Assembly (NCBI GenBank): GCA_001692895.1
Contig: KV748253.1
Span: 124,001 to 188,000 of the forward strand
From: Cenococcum geophilum 1.58
Lineage: Eukaryota > Ascomycota > Dothideomycetes > Gloniales > Gloniaceae
Direction of reading: 5' to 3'
DNA: 64,000 bases
This document shows, in pieces, positions 1-33,516 of the stretch (positions within the stretch are counted from its first letter, which is position 1; each line of letters opens with the position of its first letter). The notes under the pieces were generated by a model. That model ran no database searches and had not been told where the DNA came from. It was given only the letters and a program-made list of their open reading frames with translations. The position numbers were made by a program, and so were the translations under genes.

Positions 1-845
1 ATCTGAGATGGGCATACCATTAGATTAGAATTAAGGAAGGCGATAAATAGAAGGCAGTTTTTAGGTTAAAGGAAGGACTATATAAACTATTAGTTATGCA
101 ATTCGGGCTTATAAACGCACTAGCAACGTTTTAAAAGCGTATTAACAATATATTAAGAGAATACTTAGATGAATTTATTATGGTATACCTTAATAATATT
201 ATTATCTACTTAATAAACAAAAAAGAATATGGAGAACACGTTAAATGGGTCTTAAAGAGACTATAAGAAGAATAGATACTAGTAGCAATTAAGAAATGCA
301 AATTCTTTACTAGGAAAATAGATTTTATTAAATTTATTATTGGATTAAGCTAACTTAGTATAGATCCAAAAAAGATCAAGGCTATTGTAAATTGGCAAGA
401 ACTAGAGAATGTAACGCAGTTAAGGTTATTTTTAGGGTTTTGCAATTACTATAGAAGGTTTATAGCTTAATAGTTAAAGGATATTAAGTTGTTTATAAGG
501 TTACATCGGGAAAATATAGTACCCTTTCAATGGCCTCAATGGCTGGTGGTTGACGCAATTGGCGCGCAGTTGAGGTCATTTGGCAACTCGACCGACTAGC
601 CTATGTCGTGTTTTTTTGACACACAGCCTGCGCGTAGCCTACGCGCAACCTACGCGCAACCTGCTAGCAATCTGCGTATTTGGCAACCATAATTATATTT
701 ACCTCTTTTATATTAATAGTATATTTTAAATAAATAAAAGCTATTTTAAAGCTATTTATAAGGCTAGCAAAATAAATATTATTATTTTAGATAATTTAAT
801 ATAATATAGCAATAGTTCTCTTCTACCTATTTACCTATTAACTTA

Positions 846-2674
846 TGTAAGCTTTGCAGTGTGAAGGATTGAATAAACGACTTGATTGTAAATCTATGGA
901 AATCAAGTGGTATAAATACATAAAAGTAGACCCCGAACTCCGAAGCCTATAACTTATTTCCAACGTATCTAAGACATACGAGGGTAGTGCTAACGCAGGT
1001 GAAACAGGGTAATATGCAAGGTCCGGTAGTCGGTTACATACCCCCCCAGATTTGACGGCGTAGTCAAAGCTATAGAAAGAAAAATAAAGGTAGAGACTAT
1101 ACCAAAAATAGGAAATTTGGGTACAAATTAGGAATGGTAAAGCTTAATTCGATTCGCCAATAGGCCGATATCGATGCTCTGGTGACGTTGTAGACGTCGT
1201 ATTTAGTAACGTTGCGGTCGTCGCAACTAGTGCCGATGTAGGCTTAACTGGTGCCGATATAGGCTGGACAGGAATTGCTTTAATTATATCCAAGATATCG
1301 TCTTAAAGTCCTTGTGGTGTTTGACGCTAGTAGATCTAGAGGTACTATTCTACTAGGAGTTGGTAACTATTCAGCATCCTTTATAGGAGGCTCTTCTAAA
1401 TCGTTTAATTTAGGGGATACCATTTTAATAGAAGTCGGTAACTGTTCAGCATCCTTTATAGGAGGCTCTTCTGAATATTTTAATTCAGGGGATACTATTT
1501 TAATCTGCATTTAAGGCAGTCAATCAATCCGTGCTCGCGGTAGATCTTTTTGATCTATAGTCGAGGTAGATGTTTGATCTGTGTTCAAGGTAGTCATTTA
1601 AGCTATAGCTATATAAGCTGTAATCGAGGTAGATCTGGAAGTAGTCACTTAGTGACTCTGGTGACGTTAAGACGTCGAATTTAGTAATATTGCGGTCGTC
1701 ACAACTGGTGCCAATAAGGCTGGTGCCAATGCAGGCTGGTGCCGGTAAGGCTGGTACCAATATAGGCTGGCGTTTCGGAAGGGCGTCTACAGCGTAATGG
1801 CTGCGACTAATTATAGTGTTGGTGCCTCCCCAGGAGGCCTTGATTTGATTTGGTAACAGGCCTATATTAAGGCTCTGGTGTTCGCTAGCTAGTCGTTTAA
1901 ACGGTTGTCTGGTTTTGGCGACGGTCCTCTACTAGCTGCCGTCGGTCTAGTGCCTTCCTTATGTCTACCCAATATCCTTGTCTCTCACCATCAGTATATC
2001 CAAGCTAGCTTATGCATCTGGCTTTTACTGGCTTCGTGCTCTGGCGTATTGCACTGGCTTCCGTGCTCTTTTAACTCCGTGCTCTGGCATCTCGCACTAG
2101 CTCCGTGCCCTGGTTATTGCGCTGGCTGGGCTCTCACTTGGACGCCATATGAGGTTGTTACGCTGTGGTGGATAGGTCGACTCTGTTGAATGGTTGTGTA
2201 TCTGGGTTAAAGGAGGTTGGGGTTCATACGGTCGGGTTCGTACGGTTAGGTTCGGTTCGGTTCGATTGATATTCAATGCGATGTTCGATGCGATGTTTGA
2301 TCGTCCGTCCGTTTAGTAAATAAAGGTAATCACAAGTACAAGAGAGGTACCCGGAAGAGGCTCAAAACACTTGCAAAGGTGAAAGAAGTAGTGACTTCTT
2401 GAACGAGGTAGCAATTAATTGCTTAGTAAGCGCTAAATGTACAGATCAGATGCAGTACGGTAGGCAGGCCGGGCTTATAACTGTAAGCTTTGCAGTGTAA
2501 AGGATTGAATAAACGACTTAATTGTAAATCTATGGAAATCAAGTGGTATAAATACATGAAAGTAGACCCCGAACTCCGAAGCCTATAACTCATTTCCAAC
2601 GTATCTAAGACATATGAGGGTAGTGCTGACGTAGGTGAAATAGGGTAATATGCAAGGTCCGGTAGTCGGTTACA
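846..2674 (+). mobile_element. J: compact non-coding LTR element with 193-bp LTRs
   Basis: Direct repeats at 846-1038 and 2482-2674 are nearly identical, start TGTAAGC, end GGTTACA, and are flanked by the 5-bp duplication ACTTA (841-845 and 2675-2679). The 1.44-kb interior holds no recognisable gag or pol, so this is a TRIM/LARD-like non-autonomous element. The interior has a duplicated ~62-bp unit near 1361-1495 (containing cagcatcctttataggaggc), four ~16-bp CTGGTGCCAATAAGG-like units at about 1700-1770, and at 1881-1958 a segment matching the borders plus one unit of the 20-bp satellite. RIP-type change is mild, so it is young relative to its surroundings. Confidence 0.85.
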
Positions 2675-3028
2675 ACTTACCTACCTGCCTATATTGCCTA
2701 CCTATCTACATTGCCTACCTATCTGCATTACCTACCTATCTGCATCTACTTGCCTATTTGCATCTACTTACCTATTTATATCTACTTACCTATCTATATC
2801 TACCTACCTATCTATATTTACTTATTTATATCTACCTACCTATTTATATTTACCTACCTATTAGCATCTACCTACCTATCTATATCTGCTTGCCTATCTA
2901 TATCTACTTACCTATCTATATCTACCTACCTATCTATATTACTTACCCGTCTATATCGCCTACCTATTTATATCTACTTACCTATCTATATCTACTTACC
3001 TATTTATATCTACTTACCTATCTATATC
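2675..3028. repeat. CTAC-rich microsatellite module of S1 (left part)
   Basis: Irregular repeats of the type ctacctacctatctatat over about 350 bp. They continue at 6587-6727 after insertion of element I. Open frames here (poly YL/PT/IY) are products of the repeat and not genes. Confidence 0.9.
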
Positions 3029-6000
3029 TGTTAGATAATCTGTATTCTCAAAGGCGTAGGTCACGTGCACGAGTCACGTATACGGTGCACGTACATTGTA
3101 AATCTCTTCATAGAGCCCCAGGGGCCCCAGGTCAAGACACGATCAAAATCATCAATCAATCAACCCATTTCATCAATAAATAGCTCAATACGAGTTACGT
3201 GACAGTTATAAGCCTGGTCCGCCAAGACAAGAAGCTATTTAGCTATTATTCAATCATTTAAAGAAATTCTACCTTATTGTTAGACTCTGACACCTTATCG
3301 TCAAGACGCAGACTCTAACAGAAATCCTACCTCAATTGTCACAGGACGATCCTAACGAGAGATTCGACCTTATCATCACAGGACGATCCTGACGAGAGAT
3401 TCGACCTCATCGTCAAAGGACGATCCTGACGAGAGATTCGACCTCATCGTCAAAGGACGATCCTGACACAAGATTCCACGAGATTCCACGAGATTCCATC
3501 TCAATCGTCACAGGACAATCCTGACGACAGGACGATCCTAACGACAAGAACGATCCTGACAACAAGGACGATCCTAACAACAAGGACAATCCTAACAACA
3601 AAATACCATCTCAATTCATCCTTTGCCTATCAGTCAAATAACTCCACCGCCAAGTTCGTCAACGACGATCATCCTCAATAAGCCAGAAGACTGGGAACAA
3701 TGGCTATAGCAACTACAAGCCCTCATAGATCAGCGAATTTGGGCCCACGTTAACCCAGACAATGCAGCACCTCAATAAGGTCTACTACAAGAACCAGCCT
3801 ATCCAGAAGTTACAGATTTTAATAAGAATGCGACCTTATATACATAGCTCTTAATAAATTAATAAAGAGCGTATAAGAACAGCAGACGATACTATAACTA
3901 AGATATAAAGTACTTCCTAAAACAGGAAGAGCATTTATAACAGATACGCACCCAGATTACGTCTACAGTATTAATTTAGAAGAAGCTACTACTTAACCCT
4001 TCCTTAACCGTTAAAGAATAGCTATCCCGGCTAAAAGAGAATATAGAACCTACCTTGTCGTTTATTAGGAAGAAGGTATAACACCAATACATAAAAGCCC
4101 TTAAGGGGTTTAAATACTTATTAAAATTAAACTAATAGCTAGATTAATAGGAACACGTAATAGTACTAGGAGAGAAGTATAAGATCCCTTAAATGTCCGA
4201 TAGAATCTAGCTTTAAGATTTAGCAGAAGTTATTTAACCGTTTAGCGACGCCTACTATATAAAGTACACTACTAAGTTAAATAACCTTTAGAAGTTAAGA
4301 TCTTCTAAATACCGTAGAGTAGCAAAGGAGCTGCAAGAAGGACTTAGAAGACCCTTAAAAAAAGCCAATACTACTATAAGTAGGAGTACCTTTAACACAG
4401 ACTTCGTAGAGTAAGCCATTAAGGATCACTCTAATACTACTAAAGGTTTATAAAAAGAGGCCTTAGCACGTACTAGCCGCTTAAAGAGAGCCGGGTCACT
4501 AGTTAAGGAGACGTCCCAAAAAAAGCTAACACCTAAGTGCTTAGCGTGCGAAAGACGAGGACATTTACTTTAGGACTATTAGTGTTTATTTAAAGATAAG
4601 AGACCTATAGGAGTTACAATTAGAGGTAATCGCATTAATAGGGCACTAAAGAAGGTAGAATAAAATAAGGATTTTGCTAATCTAGTTACTAAAATCAGAC
4701 TTAAAGAATAAGAAGACGAAGCTTAATAACAATAGGACGAGAGTTAGGAGACAGTTAAGAAGAGCAAGGAAATCCTACATCTTAAGAACGTTGCCTTTTA
4801 TACGGACTTTAACACAAATCTAGTGTTGTTCCGTCTACTTTAAAAATAAGGGTACTACTAGAATAATAGACTATTAAATACGTCTAACTAGGAAGTCTAT
4901 TAGCGTTTAATATAAGCTAACTGCCACGCCGCCAACGGAAGCGCAGAATATTGTTAAGAGATATTTATCTAGATTTAAAAGGTAATATAAGACTATAGCA
5001 TCTACGTCTAGGGCATCTAGGACCTATAAGCCATTCTCGCCAAAATTAAACATAAGGTCTTACGAAGGTTCTCGGAACGGAATATTGATAAACCCTATCT
5101 CGACCTCCTAACTAGACTAACCTCAAGGAAGCGCCAAGGGATTATATTTAAGCCTTCAGCGCCATATACCTAAGCTCAAAACGGTACCGCTAAACGCTTA
5201 GGGGGTGTAATTATTGAAAAAGCACGCAAAGGGACAGTAGATCCTTAGCTTAATAAGACCTACCTATAAAAGCTAATGCATTAGCGAGTACGACCTATAG
5301 CGATCACCGTAAAATTCGACCTAAAGATAATATAGAAAGATATAGTCAACGCGCATATCCAGTACGATCTTAATAAAGTCGTTTATTAATAACATTGTTT
5401 TCTACTACCAAAAGATAGAGAAGAAAGCTTAAGAAGTAATTAAGGAGCTAAGCAAGGAATACCAGATAAGTACCCTTAGCGAGCTAAAATAGTTCCTAGA
5501 AATTTATATACTATACAATTATAGCTAGAGGCTCCTATAGCTATCCTAGGAAGCCTATATTAAGAAGATAGCTAACTAGTATAAGATAGATCTTAAAAGG
5601 GCATCTTCTAAACACTCCTATGGCAGAATCTAAACTCCTCCCTATTAATTACCGATCGATCCGTCTAACGCGTCCGTCCCCTAATACAGACCTACTAGTC
5701 CGTTCTATATCCCTACTAAGAGAAGCAGCTTCTATAATGCTATATTAGAGTATTCTAGTACCTATATAGCACGAGGAGCAGAGCAATCTACTATAGAGGA
5801 GATAAGGAACGAACGAACGGTAGAGGGAGAGATAAAGGAATACGCGATAAAGGACGAGACGATGGAAGAGATGGTAGAGGACCGATCGCATAAAGAGCAA
5901 ATAAGCAGCAGAATATAGTGACTACGTCAAGCACAGAAGCCAAGTTATTAGCCCTATCTTAGATAGCAAAAGAAGCTATCTTCACTAGCAGGATATTCAA

Positions 6001-6586
6001 AGCAACTAAAAAAGCCCTTAATTATTAAATATAACAACACGCAAACACTCTAAATAATCTTAAAAGATATAGCAAAGCTGATTACGAAGCTCCAACACGT
6101 TAATATCTATTAACACTAGCTACGTTAGGAATACGTAATAAAATAAGTATAATTTCAATAGACAGCGATAAAGGAGATAATCGCTAATAGACCTATAAAG
6201 GCCCTGCCTAAGTAAAGGTTTCAGAACTTCGTTAACCTAGTCGGAAAGGTGGATATTAAGGAGCGGCTAGATAAGGAGAAGCAACTAAAAAACCTAAGGG
6301 AGAAGGTTAGGGTAAGAAGGATTTAGATAAGATTATAGTTTATTTAACGCATTAACGGACATAAGAAGGTGGCTAGCTTTAACCTTAAAGAGCTCGAAGC
6401 TAAGGGGGTGTGTTAGATAATCTGTATTCTCAAAGGCGTAGGTCACGTGCACGAGTTACGTGCATAGTGCACGTATATTGTAAATCTCTTTATAGAGCCC
6501 TAGGGGCCCCAGGTCAAGACACGATCAAGATTATTAATCAATCAACCCATTTTATCAATAAATAGCTCAATATGAGTTATGTGATA
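3029..6586 (+). mobile_element. I: short Ty1/Copia-type LTR element, broken
   Basis: LTRs of 176 bp at 3029-3204 and 6411-6586 start TGTTAGATAATC. The target duplication is ATATC (3024-3028 and 6587-6591). A purine tract aagctaaggggg precedes the right LTR. On the plus strand there is a fungal Copia gag-like region at about 3640-4150 (LNKPEDWEQWL is readable), a CCHC-like knuckle near 4535-4590, integrase-like sequence at about 4900-5300 (PSAPYT, GGVIIEKAR) and an RNase H/3'-end-like region at about 6080-6300. At 3.56 kb it is short for a Copia element and carries many breaks. It sits inside the CTAC repeats of S1. Confidence 0.8.
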
Positions 6587-6727
6587 ATATCTACCTACCT
6601 ATTTATATCTACTTACCTATTTATATCTACTTACCTATTTATATCTACTTACCTATCTATATCTACCTACCTATCTATATCTACCTACCTATTAGTATCT
6701 CCCTGTTTATACCTACCTATCTATACT
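6587..6727. repeat. CTAC-rich microsatellite module of S1 (right part)
   Basis: Continuation of the ctaccta/tctatat repeats interrupted by element I. Followed by an AT-rich spacer (taattaattaattaaattg) and tttactggctagttat, which matches the entry to the 20-bp array in S2 and the related segment in J. Confidence 0.85.
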
Positions 6728-6782
6728 ACCTTAATTTAATTAATTAATTAAATTGTTTATAGTGTTTACTGGCTAGTTATTA

Positions 6783-7299
6783 TTATCTAGCTCTAGCAAC
6801 AGTTGTCTAGTTCTAGCGATAGTTATCTAACTTTAGAGACGGTTATCTGGTTCTAGCAACAGTTATTTAGTTTTAGCAATAGTTATCTAGCTCTGGCGAC
6901 AGTTATCTAGTTTTAGCGACAGTTATCTAACTCTAGAGACGATTGTCTAGTTTTAGCAACGATTATCTAGTTCTAGTAACGGTCGTCTAGTTCTAGTAAC
7001 GGTTGTTTAGTTTTAGCGACGGTTATCTAGTTCTAGCGATAGTTGTCTAGCTCTAGCAATAGTTGTCTAGTTCTAGCGACGGTTATCTAGTTTTAGCGAC
7101 GGTTATCTAGTTCTAGCGATAGTTATCTAGCTCTAGTAATAGTTGTCTAGCTTTAATAACGATCGTCTAGTTCTAGCGACGGTTATTTAGCTCTGGCAAC
7201 GGTTATCTAATTCTAGTAATAGTTATTTAGTTCTAGTAACGGTCGTCTAGTTCTAGCAACAGTTGTCTAGTTTTAGCGATAGTTATCTAGTTCTAGTAA
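6783..7299. repeat. 20-bp tandem array in S1
   Basis: About 26 units of a 20-bp repeat with consensus near gttatctagttctagcgacg. Variation sits at fixed positions (gac/gat/aac/aat and C/T alternation), consistent with C-to-T decay. Flanked left by a ggctagtta-type entry and right by ctttactagctgctgttcta and tgccttcc, the same flanks as in S2. Confidence 0.9.
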
Positions 7300-7430
7300 C
7301 GGTTCTTTACTAGCTGCTGTTCTAGTGCCTTCCTAAGTAGAGAGGATATAAGAAAGGAAGAAAGGGTAAAAAATAAGGCGGCTATATAGGCAGAGATACG
7401 TATAGACGCTATTAGGAATATAGCGGGGAC

Positions 7431-7920
7431 CTAATATAGAGCTTCGTGTAGAGCCTCTGTACGCAGAGCTTTACGTAGAGCTTCGCGCAGAGCCTTATGC
7501 AGAGCCTCTATACGTAGAGCTTTATATAGAGCTTTGTATAGAGCTTTATATAGAGCCTCTATATACAGAGCTTTGCGTAGAGCCTCGTGCAGAGCTTTGT
7601 GTAGAGCCTCTATACGTAAAGCTTCGCGTAGAGCCTTGTGCAGAGCTTTATGTAGAGCTTCGTGCAGAGCCTCTATACGTAGAGCCTCGCGTAGAGCCTC
7701 GTGCAGAGCCTCTATACGTAGAGCTTTGTATAAAGCTTTGTGTAGAGCTTTATATAGAGCTTTATACAGAGCTTCGTGCAGAGCTTTATGCAGAGCCTCT
7801 ATGCGCAGAGCTTCGTATAGAGCCTTTATGCGCAGAGCTTTATACAAAGCCTCTATACGTAAAGCTTTGTATAGAGCTTCGTGTAGAGCCTTATACAGAG
7901 CCTTATGCAGAGCCTCTAAG
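7431..7920. repeat. 12/15-bp tandem array in S1
   Basis: Units such as agagctttatat and gagcctctatacgta repeat across 490 bp. Unit lengths are multiples of three, so long frames stay open on both strands (138 aa minus, 129 aa plus). These are low-complexity translations and not genes. The preceding ~130 bp (7300-7430) is non-repetitive and is conserved at 16361-16496. Confidence 0.9.
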
Positions 7921-8077
7921 TAATAAGACTATATAAGATTGTATAAGATTATATTAGATAATATATAATAGTTAAATATATAGCATATAACTTTACCTTA
8001 ATTGCATGTTAAGAAATATACAGTTACCTTTTAAAGTTGCTAAGTAGGTCAACTGCGTATTATTTAACTATTAAATA

Positions 8078-8240
8078 TATTAAGTTAGTTAATTACGTAT
8101 TAATTGCGTGTTAAGTTAGTTAAATTGCGTGTTAAGTTAGTTAAATTGCGTGTTAAGTTGGTTAAATTGCGTATTAAGTTAGTCAAATGCGTATCAAGTT
8201 GGTTAATTGCGTGTCGAGTTGGTTAAATTGCATGTTAATT
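8078..8240. repeat. 21-bp tandem array near right end of S1
   Basis: About seven degenerate units of ttaagttagttaaattgcgtg. Not found in S2, so it is specific to this copy in the window. It lies between the 12-bp array and the right inverted terminus of S1. Confidence 0.8.
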
Positions 8241-10289
8241 ACGCGAAACGCGAAAATCAAAGTCTACTTAAATCTTATCCTGCGAATATTTTCCCGATGT
8301 AATAAAAAAGGAAGAACTATAGGTATAGGGAAAGGAATAAAGAAAACTATTTAAAAGAGTTAAATAGTTATTTACCTAAGAGCTAGTTCTTAAAATCTAC
8401 TAACTAAAGTTAGAGATAGTGGTTAAGACAGATATATTAGACTATACACTAGGAGCGTACTTTCTATAAAAATATAAGGATGGATGGCACCTAGTAGCAT
8501 ACTATAGTTAGAAGATAACACTACTAAAACTAAACTATAACATCTATAATAAGGAGTTATTAGGTATAGTTATAGCACTTAAGGAATAAAGAGCATTCTT
8601 ATAAGGTATAGAGAAACTATTTTTAGTTAAAATAGATTATAAGAACCTAACGGGGTTCCTAATAATAAAAGAACTTAATTATAGACAAGTTAGATGAGTA
8701 GAGATGCTTATAGAATATTATTTTAAGATTTAATATACCAAGGGTACAGAAAATACATAAGCAGATGCTTTAAGTAAAAGGGCTAAACTATAAAATAATA
8801 AGAAGCTATTAGGGGCTTTATTACAAAAAGATATAGACGGATTAATTAGATATAATTATCTAAAGATTACAGTAATATAAGAAGAATAGATCTATAAATT
8901 ACCTAAGAGTAATTAAATATAAAAGATCTAAGATATATAGGCAGAGGATCTAAACTTAAAGTAGTATAAAATTAAGAAGTAATATACGTGCTAATGTCTA
9001 TCGCAAAAGAGTTTATTAAGTTATTTTACGAAGGACTAACTTAAGGATATAATGGAGCTATAGGCTTAGTAATAAGACTCTAGGAGGAGTATATTATTAA
9101 TAAAATCTAGGGACTAGCGAGATAAGTTATAAAGGAATATCTAAATTGCTAAAGAAATAAACTAATAAGGCATAAGCTATATAGAGAGCTATAACCTATT
9201 AAAATACCAAAGAGACTATAGGAGGTTATATTATGGGACTTTATTGTTAAGTTACTAAAGTTAAGAGATCCTATTACCGGACGAGATTATAACGCGATTT
9301 TAGTGATAATAGACAAGCTAATAAAGTGGGGATACTTTATAGCATATTTAAAAGAAATATCAGCGGAAGATATTGCTAGAATCTATGTTAAGGAAGTGTT
9401 TATAAGACATAGAGCACTAAATAAGATTATATTAGACAGAGATCTAAGATTTATAGCAGTATTTTAGGAAGTATTCTTAGTAGAGTAAAGAGTTTAAGCA
9501 GCAACTTTTACCGCATATTATCCACAGACAGACGGTTAAACGGAAAGATTAAATTAGATACTAGAGCAGTATCTAAAATACTATATTAACCACGCATAGA
9601 ATAATTAGGTATCGTTATTACTAGTTATATAGTTTATATATAATGCAACACTATAAGAAGGAATGGGTACGTTACTATTTAAGGCGAATTATAGATATAA
9701 GCTAAGGACCTTATTATTGCTATATTAAGTAAAGAAAACAAATAGTATAGCTAAGTAAAGAATGGAGAATTTAATAAATCTTTATACAAACCTTATAGAA
9801 ATAGCTAAGGTGGTATAGTAAAGGATAAAAAAGTACTACGATACTAAGAGATCTAAGGGACTAGATCTTAAGGAGGGAGATAAAGTATAGCTACTATATA
9901 AAAATTTCAAGAGTTGACAACTAAGTAAGAAGTTAGACTATATCAGACTAGGACCTTTTAAAATTACGTAGAAAATTTTATTAGTTATATTTAAGTTAAA
10001 TCTACCAGCTAAGATAAAGATCTACCCTATACAGCATATCGCAATGCTAGAGCCAGCATATAGGAATATTAAGCTACTAGTTTATAAAGCAAATATATAT
10101 AGAGGACAAGAAGAAGATAAATAGCAAGTTTTAAAGATTATTAGTTACGAGGACATTAATAATAAAACATAGTATAAAGTAAAGTAAATAGGCTATAATA
10201 AGACTACCTAGGAACCACTAGAAAACCTAAAAAATGCTATAGAAAAGGTATAGGAGTATTAAAAGAAAATAGGTTAGGTAGAGAGAAAT

Positions 10290-14213: not shown

Positions 14214-15177
14214 CGTTTTTGTCCTTATATTCTTCTGGTAGCTTATCGTTTTTATTATACTAGCACTCTATCTACTTATCTAGGTACTTTAGCGGTCTGG
14301 GTTTATTAGGGTAATAGCTATAGAACTTCTAAAGCTTATAGGGGCTACCTATAAAGTTTTATATAGGGTACTAAGTAGGGTCCGGGTTATATCCTTTCCA
14401 ACTAATATAATACTTTAATGTTCCCTTTACAAGTTTATAGGCTAGTATTTCTTTAATTTCCTATTTATTATTGTTATTAACTTAAATTAGCAGGGGAGGT
14501 TTATTCTTTTATCTGGGTAGTAGGTTATTTATAGCTTTTTATAGTTTATCTAGTAAGAAAATAGGGTGGACTTTAATTAAGTTTGGGAGCTTAACCTTGT
14601 ATAAGTTGCCTACTTTATTAAGAATCTTATACGGTCCTACTATCTTATAGTCTAGCTTACGGCTAGGCCGTTCTATTTTTTAGTTCTTTGTTATAACCTA
14701 GACTATATTACCTATAGTAAAGTTAGGCTCGCGCCTATATTAGGATTTTTTTTTTAGGCGTATTGTTACAGTTTGCGGCAAGTTGCGCAAACTGTATAAT
14801 CGCGGCAGTGGTATATGGTCGTTAGCGGTTTGTACGTTTTGCGGCAACCTACGTAGAGCTGCGCAGAGCCTATATGTTTTATAGTAACCTACGCAGAGCT
14901 ACGCAGAGCCTATAGCACCTCGCGTAGAGCCTATGCGTTTTACAGCACCTTACGTAGAGCCTATGCGTTTCGCACGTTTTATAATAAAAAAACACCTTAA
15001 TAAATATTTTCTAAATTTATTAAATAATTATATATTTTTATAGATTGCTATAATATACTTTTAAATATATTTATATTATAACTATATAAAATATAGAGCT
15101 ATTTACTTAGGTAAAGGGAAAGCCTCTTATAGAGGCTCCAAATTGTTAATTAACGGTATTCCTAATAATCTGCTAAG

Positions 15178-15322
15178 GCCTACCTACCTACCTACTTACC
15201 TACCTGCCTATCTACCTATCTACTTACCTACCTACCTACCTGCCTACCTGCCTACCTATTTATCTATCTATCTATCTGTCTATTTATCTATTTATTTATT
15301 TATACCTACCTATCTATATTAC
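15178..15322. repeat. CTAC-rich microsatellite module of S2
   Basis: Repeats of ctacctac and tatctatctatctgt over about 145 bp, followed by the AT-rich spacer ccttaatttaatctattaat, which corresponds to the spacer at 6728-6760 in S1. Confidence 0.9.
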
Positions 15323-15377
15323 CTTAATTTAATCTATTAATTAAATCGTTTATAGTATTCGCTAGCTAGTTATTTAA

Positions 15378-16361
15378 ACGGTTATTATCTGGCTCTAGTA
15401 GCGGTTATATAGCTCTGGCGAGGTTATATAGCTCTAGTAATAGTTATATAGTTTTAGTAACGGTTATCTAGCTTTAACAACGGTTATCTAGCTCTAACGA
15501 CGGTTGTCTAGTTCTAGCGACGGTTATTTAGTTCTGGCAACGGTGACGGTTATCTAGTTCTAGCGACGGTTGTCTAGTTATCTAGTTCTGGCAATAGTTA
15601 ATAGTCGTCTAGTTCTAGCAACGGTCGTCTAGCTCTAGCGACGGTTATTTAGCTCTAGTGACGGTTGACGGTTATTTGGTTTTAGTAACGGTTGTCTAGC
15701 TCTGGCGACGGTTGTCTAGCTCTAATAACGGTCGTCTGGCTCTAGCGATGGTTAATAGTTATCTAGCTCTGGCAACGGTTATCTGGCTCTAGCTCTAGTA
15801 ACAGTTATCTAGTTCTAGCGATAGTTGTCTGGTTTTAGCGATGGTTGTCTAGTTCTAGCGATAGTTGTCTAGTCGTCTAGTTCTAGCGATGGTTGTCTGG
15901 CTCTGGCGACGGTTGTTTAGCTCTAATAACGGTTATCTAACTTTGGCGATGGTCGACGGTTGTCTGGCTCTAGTGATGGTCGACGGTTATCTAGCTCTAG
16001 CGACGGTCGTCTAGCTCTGGCTCTGGCGACGGTTGTCTAATTCTAGCAACAGTTGTCTAGTTCTGGCGACGGTTGTCTGGTTATCTAGTTCTAGCGACGG
16101 TTATTTAGCTCTAGCAATAATCGTCTAGCTCTAATAACGGTTGTTTAGCTCTAGCGATGGTTAACGGTTGTCTAGCTCTGGTAATAGTTATCTGGCTCTA
16201 GTAACGGTTAACAATCGTCTAGTTTTAGCAACGGTTGTTTAGCTCCGGCAACGGTTATTTAACTCTAGCGACGATTATCTGGCTCTAATAATGGTCGTCT
16301 AGCTCTAGCAATAGTTAATAGTTGTCTAGTTCTGGCGACGGTCGTCTAGTTTTAGTGACGG
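15378..16361. repeat. 20-bp tandem array in S2
   Basis: Close to 49 units of the same 20-bp repeat as in S1 (gttatctagctctagcgacg type), with occasional partial units such as an extra gacggt or ggctct. About twice as long as the S1 array. Flanks (ttcgctagctagt on the left, ccttagctagctgct on the right) match S1 and J. Confidence 0.9.
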
Positions 16362-16496
16362 TCCTTAGCTAGCTGCTATTTTAGTGCCTCCCTAAGTAGA
16401 AAGGATATAAGAAAAAAAGGGTAAAAAATAAGGTGGCTACCTAGGTGTATATGTAGAGGCTATTAGGAATATAGTAGGGACCCGATAGTAATATAT

Positions 16497-17660
16497 TATG
16501 CGGAGCTTTATGCAGAGCTTCTATATGTAAAGCTTCGCGCAGAGCCTTGTATAGAGCCTCTATATATAGAGCTTTATATAGAGCTTTATATAGAGCTTTA
16601 TAGAGAGCTTTTAAGTAGAGCTTTATATAAAGCCTCTATATATAGAGCTTCGTGTAAAGCCTTATATAGAGCTTTATATAAAGCTTTATATAGAGCTTTA
16701 TATAGAGCTTTAAGTAGAGCTTCGCGTAGAGCTTTGAGTAGAGCCTTATATAGGCTTTAAGCAGAGCTTTAAGTAGAGCTTTATATAGAGCTTTGAGTAG
16801 AGCTTTATATAAAGCTTTAAGTAGAGCTTCGTGCAAAGCTTTGTATAGAGCTTTGTATAAAGCTTTAAGCGGAGCTTTATATAGAGCTTTAAGCGGAGCT
16901 TTGTATAGAGCTTCGTGCGGAGCTTCGTGCGGAGCTTTGTATAGAGCTTTAAGTAGAGCTTTAAGCAGAGCTTTGTGCGGAGCTTTATATAGAGCTTTAA
17001 GTAGAGCTTCGAGCAGAGCTTTAAGCAGAGCTTTAAGCAGAGCTTTAAGCAAAGCTTTGTGTAGAGCTTTGAGTAGAGCTTTATATAGAGCTTTAAGCAG
17101 AGCTTTATATAGAGCTTTAAGCAGAGCTTTATGTAGAGCTTTAAGCAGAGCTTTGTATAGAGCTTTAAGCGGAGCTTTGTGTAAAGCTTCGTGTAGAGTT
17201 TTATATAAAGCTTTAAGCGAAGCTTTGCGTAGAGCTTTAAGCGGAGCTTTGTATAGAGCTTTGTGCGGAGCTTTATACAGAGCTTTATATAGAGCTTTAA
17301 GTAGAGCTTCGTATAGAGCTTTGTATAGAGCTTTATATAGAGCTTTAAGCAGAGCTTTAAGTAGAGCTTTATATAGAGCTTTATATAGAGCTTTGTGTAG
17401 AGCTTCGAGCAGAGCTTTAAGCAGAGCTTTATATAAAGCTTTAAGCAGAGCTTCGTATAAAGCTTCGTGTAGAGTTTTATATAGAGCTTTGTATAGAGCT
17501 TTATATAAAGCTTTATATAGAGCTTTAAGCAAAGCTTTAAGCAGAGCTTTATATAGAGCTTTAAGCAGAGCTTTATATAAAGCTTTATACAGAACCTTAT
17601 ATAGAGCTTCGTATAGAGCCTCGTGTAGAGCTTCGTGCAGAGCTTTATATAGAGCTTTAT
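16497..17660. repeat. 12-bp tandem array in S2
   Basis: 1.16 kb of agagctttatat/agagctttaagc units. Several long frames remain open on both strands (298 and 386 aa minus, 289 aa plus), giving KALYKALL-, KLYIKLYT- and RALYRALS-type peptides. This is expected for a 12-bp unit without stop triplets and is not evidence of a gene. Confidence 0.9.
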
Positions 17661-17668
17661 AGTTATAG

Positions 17669-17932
17669 TATTAGGATTTTTTTTAGGCGCGTTATTNCAG
17701 CTAAAAATTAGGGTCTGCAAAACCTGTATAAGCCGCGATTTCAGTAATTTATAGTAATTTGCACGAGTAGCCTGTATATTTATAGTAATTTGTAGTAATT
17801 TGCACGAGTAGCCTATATGTTTATAGCAAATTGCCGTAAGTTGCCGCAAATCGCTAAAATTGCGACTTACGCAGGTTTTGCAGACCCTGATTTTCGCTTG
17901 CGACAACGTGCCTAAAAAAAAATTTCCTAATA
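17669..17932. mobile_element. Inverted-repeat unit at right end of S2 (MITE-like)
   Basis: The two ends are complementary over roughly 80 bp: tattagga, T tract, aggcgcgtta, then gggtctgcaaaacctg on the left, and the complement of the same on the right. A related copy of the left arm starts at 14738. The middle holds a direct repeat of aatttgcacgagtagcct. It could be a separate MITE that jumped into the array end, or the true terminus of S2 duplicated. Confidence 0.55.
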
Positions 17933-32256: not shown

Positions 32257-32478
32257 ACCGTGCGGTCCTCCTACCACCTCAAAAGGCGGAACGAGAAACT
32301 TACATGAGCTTAATACAATGGCGCTAATGCACGATATCCCACTAAAGACCCACAAATTTGCGAAAGCTGAGAATTCAAAAACAGACGCAGCTCCTCATTT
32401 GCCTCGAATTCTTACCCACATTCTGACACTTCTCGAACTCTAGTCGCAACTTTGACAGCTAAAAGTCGAACGGACATC

Positions 32479-33516
32479 ATGAGTTCGGGGCAAAGCCACC
32501 GTTTGGTCTTGATCTCGCACCCCCGTACCGCTTCCAATTTACTCATTAAGATCCTCAACATAGACGAGCAACACGAAATCCTCCCATCCTCCCGAAGGAC
32601 AGGACATATCTTCTACCCAGCAATCAAAGTGAAGTTTGAGCATGGACTCCAAGCCAAAAGAGTATGCGATTGGTCAGAGGAGGAGAGAAGCACCATGATT
32701 CAGACCAACCAGGAAAGACTCAATGAGCTTGACGAGTATGCCACCCGTGCGAAAAACGAGGGAAAGATCGCTTTCTTCAGGGACCATAGTATTTCATTGG
32801 CGGACCCGGTTGCACAAACTCGATTCTACGTTGGTGAGGACTCGGTTCAGGAAATACCTTGGCCAGTAAAAGGCGCCGGAAGTCACGGTGCTCTACGTAC
32901 TTCGCTAAACAATACGTTGCTACCAGACGAGTTTTTAAAGAGCTGGCGACCAACATTTGTTATCAGGCATCCTGCGTTGGTTTTTCCGTCTTACTGTCGT
33001 GTTCTGGATGCTGCAGATAGTAGCGAGGACGAGATGGTCCGGGAAGGAGCGCTCGTCAACACCTACCACTGGACCCGTTCTCTGTACGATTGTTACAAGA
33101 ACGCCTTCGCTATCGACGGCATAATTCTGGATGCCGAAGATATCATCTCAAAGCCCGAGGTGCTTTTCCACTATTGCGAAAAAGTAGGAATAGACTCTTC
33201 GAAATTGAGGTTCACGTGGGACGCCAAGTCAACGATTGAGGAGCTTGCGCAAAATAAGGTCCGAGACCTACAGCATCGGCCATTCATGGCAACCATGGAC
33301 GCATCATCCGGAATTTTACAAGATAAAGCGCCTTCTCATATTGATATTGATCTTGAAGCAAAGAAGTGGCGAGAAGAGTTTGGCGAGCGGGCTGGCGCAA
33401 AGCTGGAAGAATGGGTTAGAGCGGCGATTCCGGACTACGAATATTTAAGCAGCAGGAGGTTGAGAGCTAAGGGTGAAGGAGATTACTCGGGGATTAAACT
33501 GGGGGGCCTCCCGTGA
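32479..33516 (+). CDS. Sulfotransferase-like P-loop protein, 345 aa, intronless
   Basis: Probably transfers sulfate from PAPS to a small molecule, or is a P-loop relative with another role. The frame is open from 32452, but the first ATG is 32479 (MSSGQSHRLVLISHPRTAS). Residues 10-20 (VLISHPRTASN) are in the position of the 5'-phosphosulfate-binding loop. Residues 163-172 (RHPALVFPSY) match the 3'-phosphate-binding motif. Residues 219-238 (DAEDIISKPEVLFHYCEKVG) match the conserved YEDL..P...v...FlG block of sulfotransferases. No signal peptide or transmembrane segment, so likely cytosolic. Length fits the family. Base composition is normal, without RIP decay, unlike everything beyond 35.3 kb. 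It lies in the same direction as the glycosyltransferase, with a foldback element between them. Substrate unknown; I am confident of the fold, less of the reaction. Confidence 0.75.
   Translation: MSSGQSHRLVLISHPRTASNLLIKILNIDEQHEILPSSRRTGHIFYPAIKVKFEHGLQAKRVCDWSEEERSTMIQTNQERLNELDEYATRAKNEGKIAFFRDHSISLADPVAQTRFYVGEDSVQEIPWPVKGAGSHGALRTSLNNTLLPDEFLKSWRPTFVIRHPALVFPSYCRVLDAADSSEDEMVREGALVNTYHWTRSLYDCYKNAFAIDGIILDAEDIISKPEVLFHYCEKVGIDSSKLRFTWDAKSTIEELAQNKVRDLQHRPFMATMDASSGILQDKAPSHIDIDLEAKKWREEFGERAGAKLEEWVRAAIPDYEYLSSRRLRAKGEGDYSGIKLGGLP

Follow-up and report, generated by a model that had tools for sequence, protein, structure and literature searches.

A 64,000-nucleotide stretch of the Cenococcum geophilum 1.58 genome (GCA_001692895.1, contig KV748253.1, positions 124,001 to 188,000; the window) contains a 7.8-kb block of tandem repeats between inverted ends, termed S1. 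S1 is very probably (probability about 0.91) a non-autonomous DNA transposon of the Plavaka lineage in the CACTA/EnSpm-like clade, derived from P20, an element of about 20 kb in the same genome. We classify it in this way because it shares its ends with the transposase-bearing P20, its termini are nearly those of PlavakaB and it is flanked by 2-bp duplications. A first-pass annotation, made from the letters of the window, had described a transposase-less mobile element with inverted termini that fitted no named family. The description was borne out, the transposase being carried by the relative P20 and not by S1. The lack of a family was not, because the Plavaka branch fits and a Plavaka element of about 20 kb with the same ends exists in the genome.

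Borders, insertion site and copies of S1

S1 occupies positions 504-8299 of the window and is bordered by the following features.

502-503, no strand: target-site duplication TA, left (flank letters, empty-site search)
504-517, plus strand: left terminal inverted repeat CATCGGGAAAATAT, 14 bp (pattern match, genome count)
8286-8299, minus strand: right terminal inverted repeat CATCGGGAAAATAT (pattern match)
8300-8301, no strand: target-site duplication TA, right (flank letters, empty-site search)

The block had been annotated as 503-8300 with a 17-bp repeat. The 17-mer is exact at 501-517 (plus) and 8286-8302 (minus), once per strand, and the window holds no further site even when three mismatches are allowed. 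Yet the letters preceding the 14-bp core are host sequence; the 17 bp took in the TA duplication. The insertion with inverted ends stood, while its borders and the length of its repeat were corrected. Scored loosely in the window, the pair by itself would be weak evidence, with a mean of 0.35 matches at up to three mismatches in shuffled windows and two or more matches in 4 of 100 shuffles. The genome counts decide. Among 177,193,698 bases on 162 contigs the exact 17-mer was present at 42 places versus 1 for the reversed control, and the 14-bp core CATCGGGAAAATAT at 360 versus 10. With up to three mismatches allowed, the 17-mer was not enriched in the genome (1367 versus 5186 in the control), and because the control outnumbers the pattern there, only exact or near-exact end matches were used.

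The block interrupts a copy of the Gypsy element Gypsy-A. Both flanks were joined around a single TA and used as a query. All 40 scored matches, the best of 2976 candidates, crossed the junction without a gap, the target span being equal to the query span, and lacked the block. The search favours uninterrupted copies and compares spans rather than letters; it proves that such sites exist, not what share of them carries an insert. Because the joined flanks run uninterrupted in other copies, the block is an insertion into Gypsy-A and not a component of it, as the annotation had proposed. This answers the two refuting conditions set with the annotation, namely the same block in every other Gypsy-A copy and an inverted repeat that belongs to the Gypsy element.

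S1 is a high-copy family. Its first 345 bp gave 40 scored places (best 40 of 740 candidates, own copy included), all at least 93% alike, and exact matches to the left-type end were dispersed over 185 places. The next 20 copies in rank by left-end similarity were fetched, a sample selected by intact ends or high similarity and hence not unbiased. Left and right end were found in 18 of them, with lengths of 1959-2877 bp; the left end of L069, where the repeat fails the pattern, was placed by position, and L059 and L062 had no right end in the stretch fetched. Both repeats were recognised by pattern in 17 copies, usually CATCGGCAAAATAT on the left and CATCGGGAAAATAT on the right, and the 2-bp flanks matched in 16 of these.

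The order of the arrays, i.e. 11-bp subterminal, 18-bp CTAC-rich, 20-bp and 12-bp, was the same in 20 of 20 fetched copies, in accord with the annotated fixed order, and an extra 20/41-bp subterminal array was present in all 18 copies having a right end. Order is fixed and lengths are fluid: over 18 copies the 20-bp array measured 290-1111 bp and the 12-bp array 178-778 bp. Pairwise identity of the left 330 bp was 93.7-99.7%. The closest pair (99.7%) still differed by 126 bp when array lengths were summed, and lower identity went with larger length differences (Spearman -0.46, all pairs, not independent). The annotation had left open whether the element carries or builds satellites. That it carries them is plain, and for building them the support is limited to the copy-to-copy variation of array length.

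Two relatives on contigs C4 and C57, L071 (515 bp) and L072 (542 bp), resemble S1 at their ends and contain nothing that matches the arrays. Because of these, the interior arrays are dispensable for insertion. A diverged subfamily (L073, L074, L075) has left ends 75-79% alike to those of S1 and retains the arrays together with an extra CCTG and 20-bp unit.

Target duplications were examined in the 26 elements whose two repeats both fit the pattern, window copy included and L069 excluded. Identical 2-bp flanks were found in 24 (13 TA, 6 AA, 2 TC, 1 CA, 1 TT and 1 TG), one match extending to 3 bp, while 2000 shuffles of the right flanks averaged 9.3 matches of 26 and never exceeded 18. Among the 13 elements not flanked by TA on both sides, 11 still matched. 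The S1 family is not TA-specific: the annotated insertion at TA is correct for the window copy and does not extend to the family, and 8 of the 11 other duplications sit in copies sharing 95% identity or more with the window copy at the left end.

P20 and the assignment to Plavaka

P20 was recognised among 30 loci taken from the exact 17-mer, four of which (L005, L011, L015, L027) carried about 1 kb of common coding-like sequence after an S1-type right end. A genome search with that stretch gave 40 scored places of 304 candidates. A 6-kb piece upstream of one such end (L078), translated with X at stops, matched PF18759, the Plavaka transposase, with E=2.2e-36 and 126 bits (cut-off 26.3 bits) over profile positions 37-317 of 325. 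Four 304-amino-acid pieces of the P20 right end had no Pfam match, the Plavaka domain sitting upstream. Inspection by eye shows a unit of roughly 120 bp repeated about three times in tandem 5' of the gene (L078, about 3970-4290).

Genome-wide PF18759 had 123 matches, and none in the 14 control genomes. The matches were sorted into a long class of 67 and a split class represented by 41 first halves, with 15 second-half rows unused. Spacing to left ends was measured with 100 of the 185 exact matches plus two further left-end patterns, minus four GGG rows (hand-entered). An S1-type left end among those listed lay 16,855-16,980 bp upstream on the same strand in 10 of 67 long-class loci versus 0 of 41 split-class loci; the single split-class pairing was at 36 kb. 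The coding-like stretch of L015 followed the domain within 3 kb in 34 of 67 versus 0 of 41. For right ends, 97 of the 360 places of CATCGGGAAAATAT, those on contigs C1-C9, were used in pairing and spacing counts, and three listed on contig C10 were omitted, including the right end of the C10 element described next. An exact inward-facing right repeat was present 2,138-2,199 bp downstream of the domain in 3 of 22 long-class versus 0 of 9 split-class loci on C1-C9.

A complete P20 lies at C10:374438-394372. It is 19,935 bp long, has both S1-type ends with TA on both sides, and carries a long-class Plavaka domain 2,090 bp inside its right end. The S1 ends align to P20 over about 300 bp at 85% on the left (piece L079) and over 330 bp on the right, in pieces of 74-86% identity.

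CACTA/EnSpm elements proper end in CACTA or CACTG, and S1 with its CATCG termini was rejected as one of them. PF02992, the CACTA/EnSpm transposase, had 0 matches in the genome, but the 14 control genomes were equally silent, so that the negative carries no weight. Helitrons have neither terminal inverted repeats nor target duplications; S1 has both, was therefore rejected as a Helitron, and differs in the same way from the Helitron DINE of Drosophila.

The accessible sections of a recent survey (Kojima 2025, PMC12730594) give mostly CA..TG ends and 2-5 bp duplications for the CACTA-like clade, with CAC..GTG termini for some CACTA/EnSpm elements, TGT..ACA and 2-bp duplications for PlavakaA, and CATCA..TGATG and 2- or 3-bp duplications for PlavakaB. 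S1 resembles PlavakaB in its CATC..GATG termini, its 2-bp duplication and the Plavaka transposase of its full-length relative (PMC12730594). Duplications of this size flank 24 of the 26 S1-type elements, and the C10 copy of P20 has TA on both sides. The Plavaka families described in those sections come from Agaricomycotina, unlike S1, and no satellite-filled non-autonomous derivative is mentioned there; dioxygenase-bearing transposons of Ascomycota are named as Helitron and IS3EU (PMC12730594).

That satellites occur inside non-autonomous DNA transposons is already a known theme, as far as the accessible part of another paper goes (PMC9659126). Jozin of Chenopodium, a non-autonomous CACTA-like element, is likewise tied to tandem repeats; it is a plant element with one satellite and a transposase region, not a series of arrays shared between families (PMC9659126). 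The miniature inverted-repeat transposable element miDNA4 of Xenopus tropicalis also contains and multiplies a satellite, but it is listed as a Tc1/mariner element with a single one (PMC9659126), whereas in S1 several different arrays follow one another in fixed order between ends of the CACTA clade. DINE shares with S1 that it is non-autonomous, its central tandem repeats being linked to satellite arrays (PMC9659126). In a limited literature search, with sources accessible in part, no description of satellite-filled Plavaka derivatives was found.

A cassette shared with S2 and the origin of S1

The window contains a second satellite-bearing family, S2.

14738-17932, plus strand: S2, ends TATTAGGA..TCCTAATA, TA on both sides, with CTAC, 20-bp and 12-bp arrays

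The block 15179-17660 had been considered as a second S1 copy and was rejected since its ends differ. A less mutated S2 copy (L080/L081) is 3463 bp long with ends CATCAGGAA..TTCCTGATG and TA on both sides, and has exactly the CATCA..TGATG termini published for PlavakaB (PMC12730594). A search with the left part of S2 gave 40 scored places of 1344 candidates, window copy included. Left end, CCTA array and next spacer matched in one piece in 11 of the 40, and a twelfth reached position 512 of 635; the other 28 matched mainly from about position 234-279, some with a separate left-end piece. Judged by its termini and duplication only, S2 may be a Plavaka element too. The split class of Plavaka domains, whose two part-matches lie about 100 bp apart in the pairs inspected (perhaps an intron), is a second Plavaka lineage and could supply its transposase.

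The end regions of S1 had no match in S2 copy L080. Array order, by contrast, is identical in the two families, and two spacers of S1 copy L066 match L080 at 85%, over 66 and 130 positions respectively. The three core arrays and their spacers make up one cassette common to two families with unrelated ends.

S1 keeps about 300 bp of the left and about 330 bp of the right end of P20, both with subterminal tandem repeats, and the rest of the interior, transposase included, is replaced by the cassette of three minisatellites (18, 20 and 12 bp) and spacers. The Plavaka transposase of P20 would have recognised the 14-bp inverted repeats and the subterminal repeats of S1 in trans, cutting S1 out and inserting it with a 2-bp stagger. 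The subterminal arrays are putative binding sites of the transposase, on the model of CACTA elements. Template switching or gap repair may have brought the cassette in between P20-type ends, and the arrays would lengthen and shorten by slippage or unequal exchange.

Several observations weigh against this derivation. All 123 Plavaka matches contain in-frame stops, mostly TAA and TAG, and no working enzyme was seen; mobilisation by Plavaka is deduced from nothing but the shared ends. Ten other long-class pairings with left ends were scattered over 9.7-38 kb (nine other loci and the second pairing of one clustered locus). Only the three of 22 long-class loci on C1-C9 have the exact right repeat where it is expected, and an exact opposed right repeat within 15 kb was missing for 44 of the 87 listed left ends on C1-C9 (53 + 34 from different left-end patterns). 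Decay of the repeats may explain the misses. Two of the 26 elements lack a 2-bp duplication (L060 has none, L072 has the 4-bp TAAG on both sides). P20 may be placed in Plavaka by its PF18759 match, termini and duplication rather than by a tree. The P20 pieces compared leave about 10.4 kb of the sampled copy uncovered. Finally, S1 ends in CATCG..CGATG with G instead of A as the fifth base, so that four of five bases agree with PlavakaB (PMC12730594).

The uncovered 10.4 kb leaves room for the cassette in the middle of P20, which would make S1 a simple internal deletion without captured sequence. We regard this as rather unlikely: comparison of the cassette with the P20 pieces L078, L079, L011 and L015 gave nothing at E<=1e-3, and the cassette recurs in S2 between ends unrelated to those of S1.

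A function of the satellites, as a repetitive protein or in regulation or chromatin, could likewise account for the retention of the cassette in two families and for the likeness of its spacers, about 85%. The frames of the arrays do remain open where copies are less mutated, reaching 298 amino acids in L057. However, they are open on both strands, as expected of stop-free tandem units, and nothing beyond such frames was found when coding capacity was considered. Array length also varies several-fold among the 18 copies, and L071 and L072 demonstrate that insertion needs no cassette. A functional explanation is thus improbable, and derivation of S1 from P20 with capture of the cassette is preferred.

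Tc1/mariner elements duplicate TA only, and TA on both sides in 13 of the 26 elements, window copy included, would suit such an origin. The 11 of 24 matching duplications with other dinucleotides, found mostly in close relatives of the window copy, rule out this strict rule, and the transposase of the full-length element with S1-type ends is Plavaka. A six-frame scan of long S1 copies as candidate autonomous elements yielded a DDE_3 domain of the Tc1/mariner group in L077 (E=1.1e-6). It belongs to a nested element of about 3.1 kb (about 2474-5611) within the S1 right end, which has its own 117-bp inverted arms and TA on both sides; the S1 right end continues on either side of it. The candidacy was therefore rejected. 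The same scan gave a weak RVT_1 match in L076 (29.0 versus a cut-off of 29.6 bits) and no domain match in L074. S1 ends can enclose other transposase genes, the single case found being a nested insert; L010 contains what we take to be another nested Tc1-like element. A Tc1/mariner origin of S1 is very improbable. Even less credible is that S1 and S2 are old immobile satellite loci with inverted repeats arisen by chance or duplication: tandem repeat makes up most of each element, but uninterrupted target copies, 2-bp duplications, 185 and 360 dispersed exact end matches and ends in common with a transposase-bearing element all speak against it.

The window copy and its significance

The interior of the window copy is laid out as follows.

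504-820, plus strand: left end region, homologous to the P20 left end (85% over 311 aligned positions, L066 versus L079)
624-662, plus strand: 11-bp subterminal tandem array (array detection)
846-2674, plus strand: nested long terminal repeat (LTR) element A, foreign to S1; 193-bp LTRs at 846-1038 and 2482-2674, 96% alike
2680-3028, plus strand: CTAC-rich 17/18-bp array, first part (array detection)
3029-6586, plus strand: nested LTR element B, foreign to S1, within the CTAC array; repeats at 3029-3202 and 6411-6584, 92% alike
6587-6731, plus strand: CTAC-rich 18-bp array, remaining part (array detection)
6783-7304, plus strand: 20-bp array, unit GTCGTCTGGTTCTGGCGACG in less mutated copies (array detection)
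7305-7436, plus strand: spacer between the 20-bp and 12-bp arrays (counterparts in L066 and L080 85% alike over 130 positions)
7437-7913, plus strand: 12-bp array, unit TGCAGAGCTTCG in less mutated copies (array detection)
7923-7965, plus strand: 10-bp A+T-rich array, close to the inward border of homology to the P20 right end (array detection, alignment)
8102-8238, plus strand: 20/21-bp subterminal array; the P20 right end has similar repeats (array detection, alignment)

Elements A and B are flanked by their own target duplications, ACTTA at 841-845 and 2675-2679 and ATATC at 3024-3028 and 6587-6591. The block measures 7.8 kb because of these two later insertions, and without them its length of about 2.4 kb is the usual family size. 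Element A contains no open frame of at least 150 amino acids; element B has 37-bp and 18-bp tandem repeats of its own (3329-3601). The G+C content of the window copy, 0.357, is the lowest of 22 sequences (20 other S1 copies 0.39-0.51, S2 0.382), which we read as probable heavy decay resembling repeat-induced point mutation (RIP). The copy landed at a TA in Gypsy-A, later took in both LTR elements and was probably eroded by C-to-T changes of the RIP type. Neither the Rfam nor the tRNA scan of the window gave a match. An open frame of 354 amino acids at 32452-33516, on which Pfam was silent at E<=0.01, is possibly a host gene.

Taken together, the two large tandem-repeat blocks of the window are transposon cargo and not independent satellites. 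A high-copy DNA transposon whose interior is mostly minisatellite offers a concrete route for seeding satellites at many sites. To the little-described Plavaka lineage the data add satellite-filled non-autonomous families, a full-length relative of about 20 kb and insertions with empty sites. As a tentative idea, the cassette may be a portable minisatellite module swapped between Plavaka families, possibly favoured as array-filled derivatives outdo coding copies under a RIP-like defence; satellites would then be a cost of continued mobility, or the way in which it is achieved. Because a single cassette occurs in two families whose ends differ, the swapping of modules between transposons can be tested directly.

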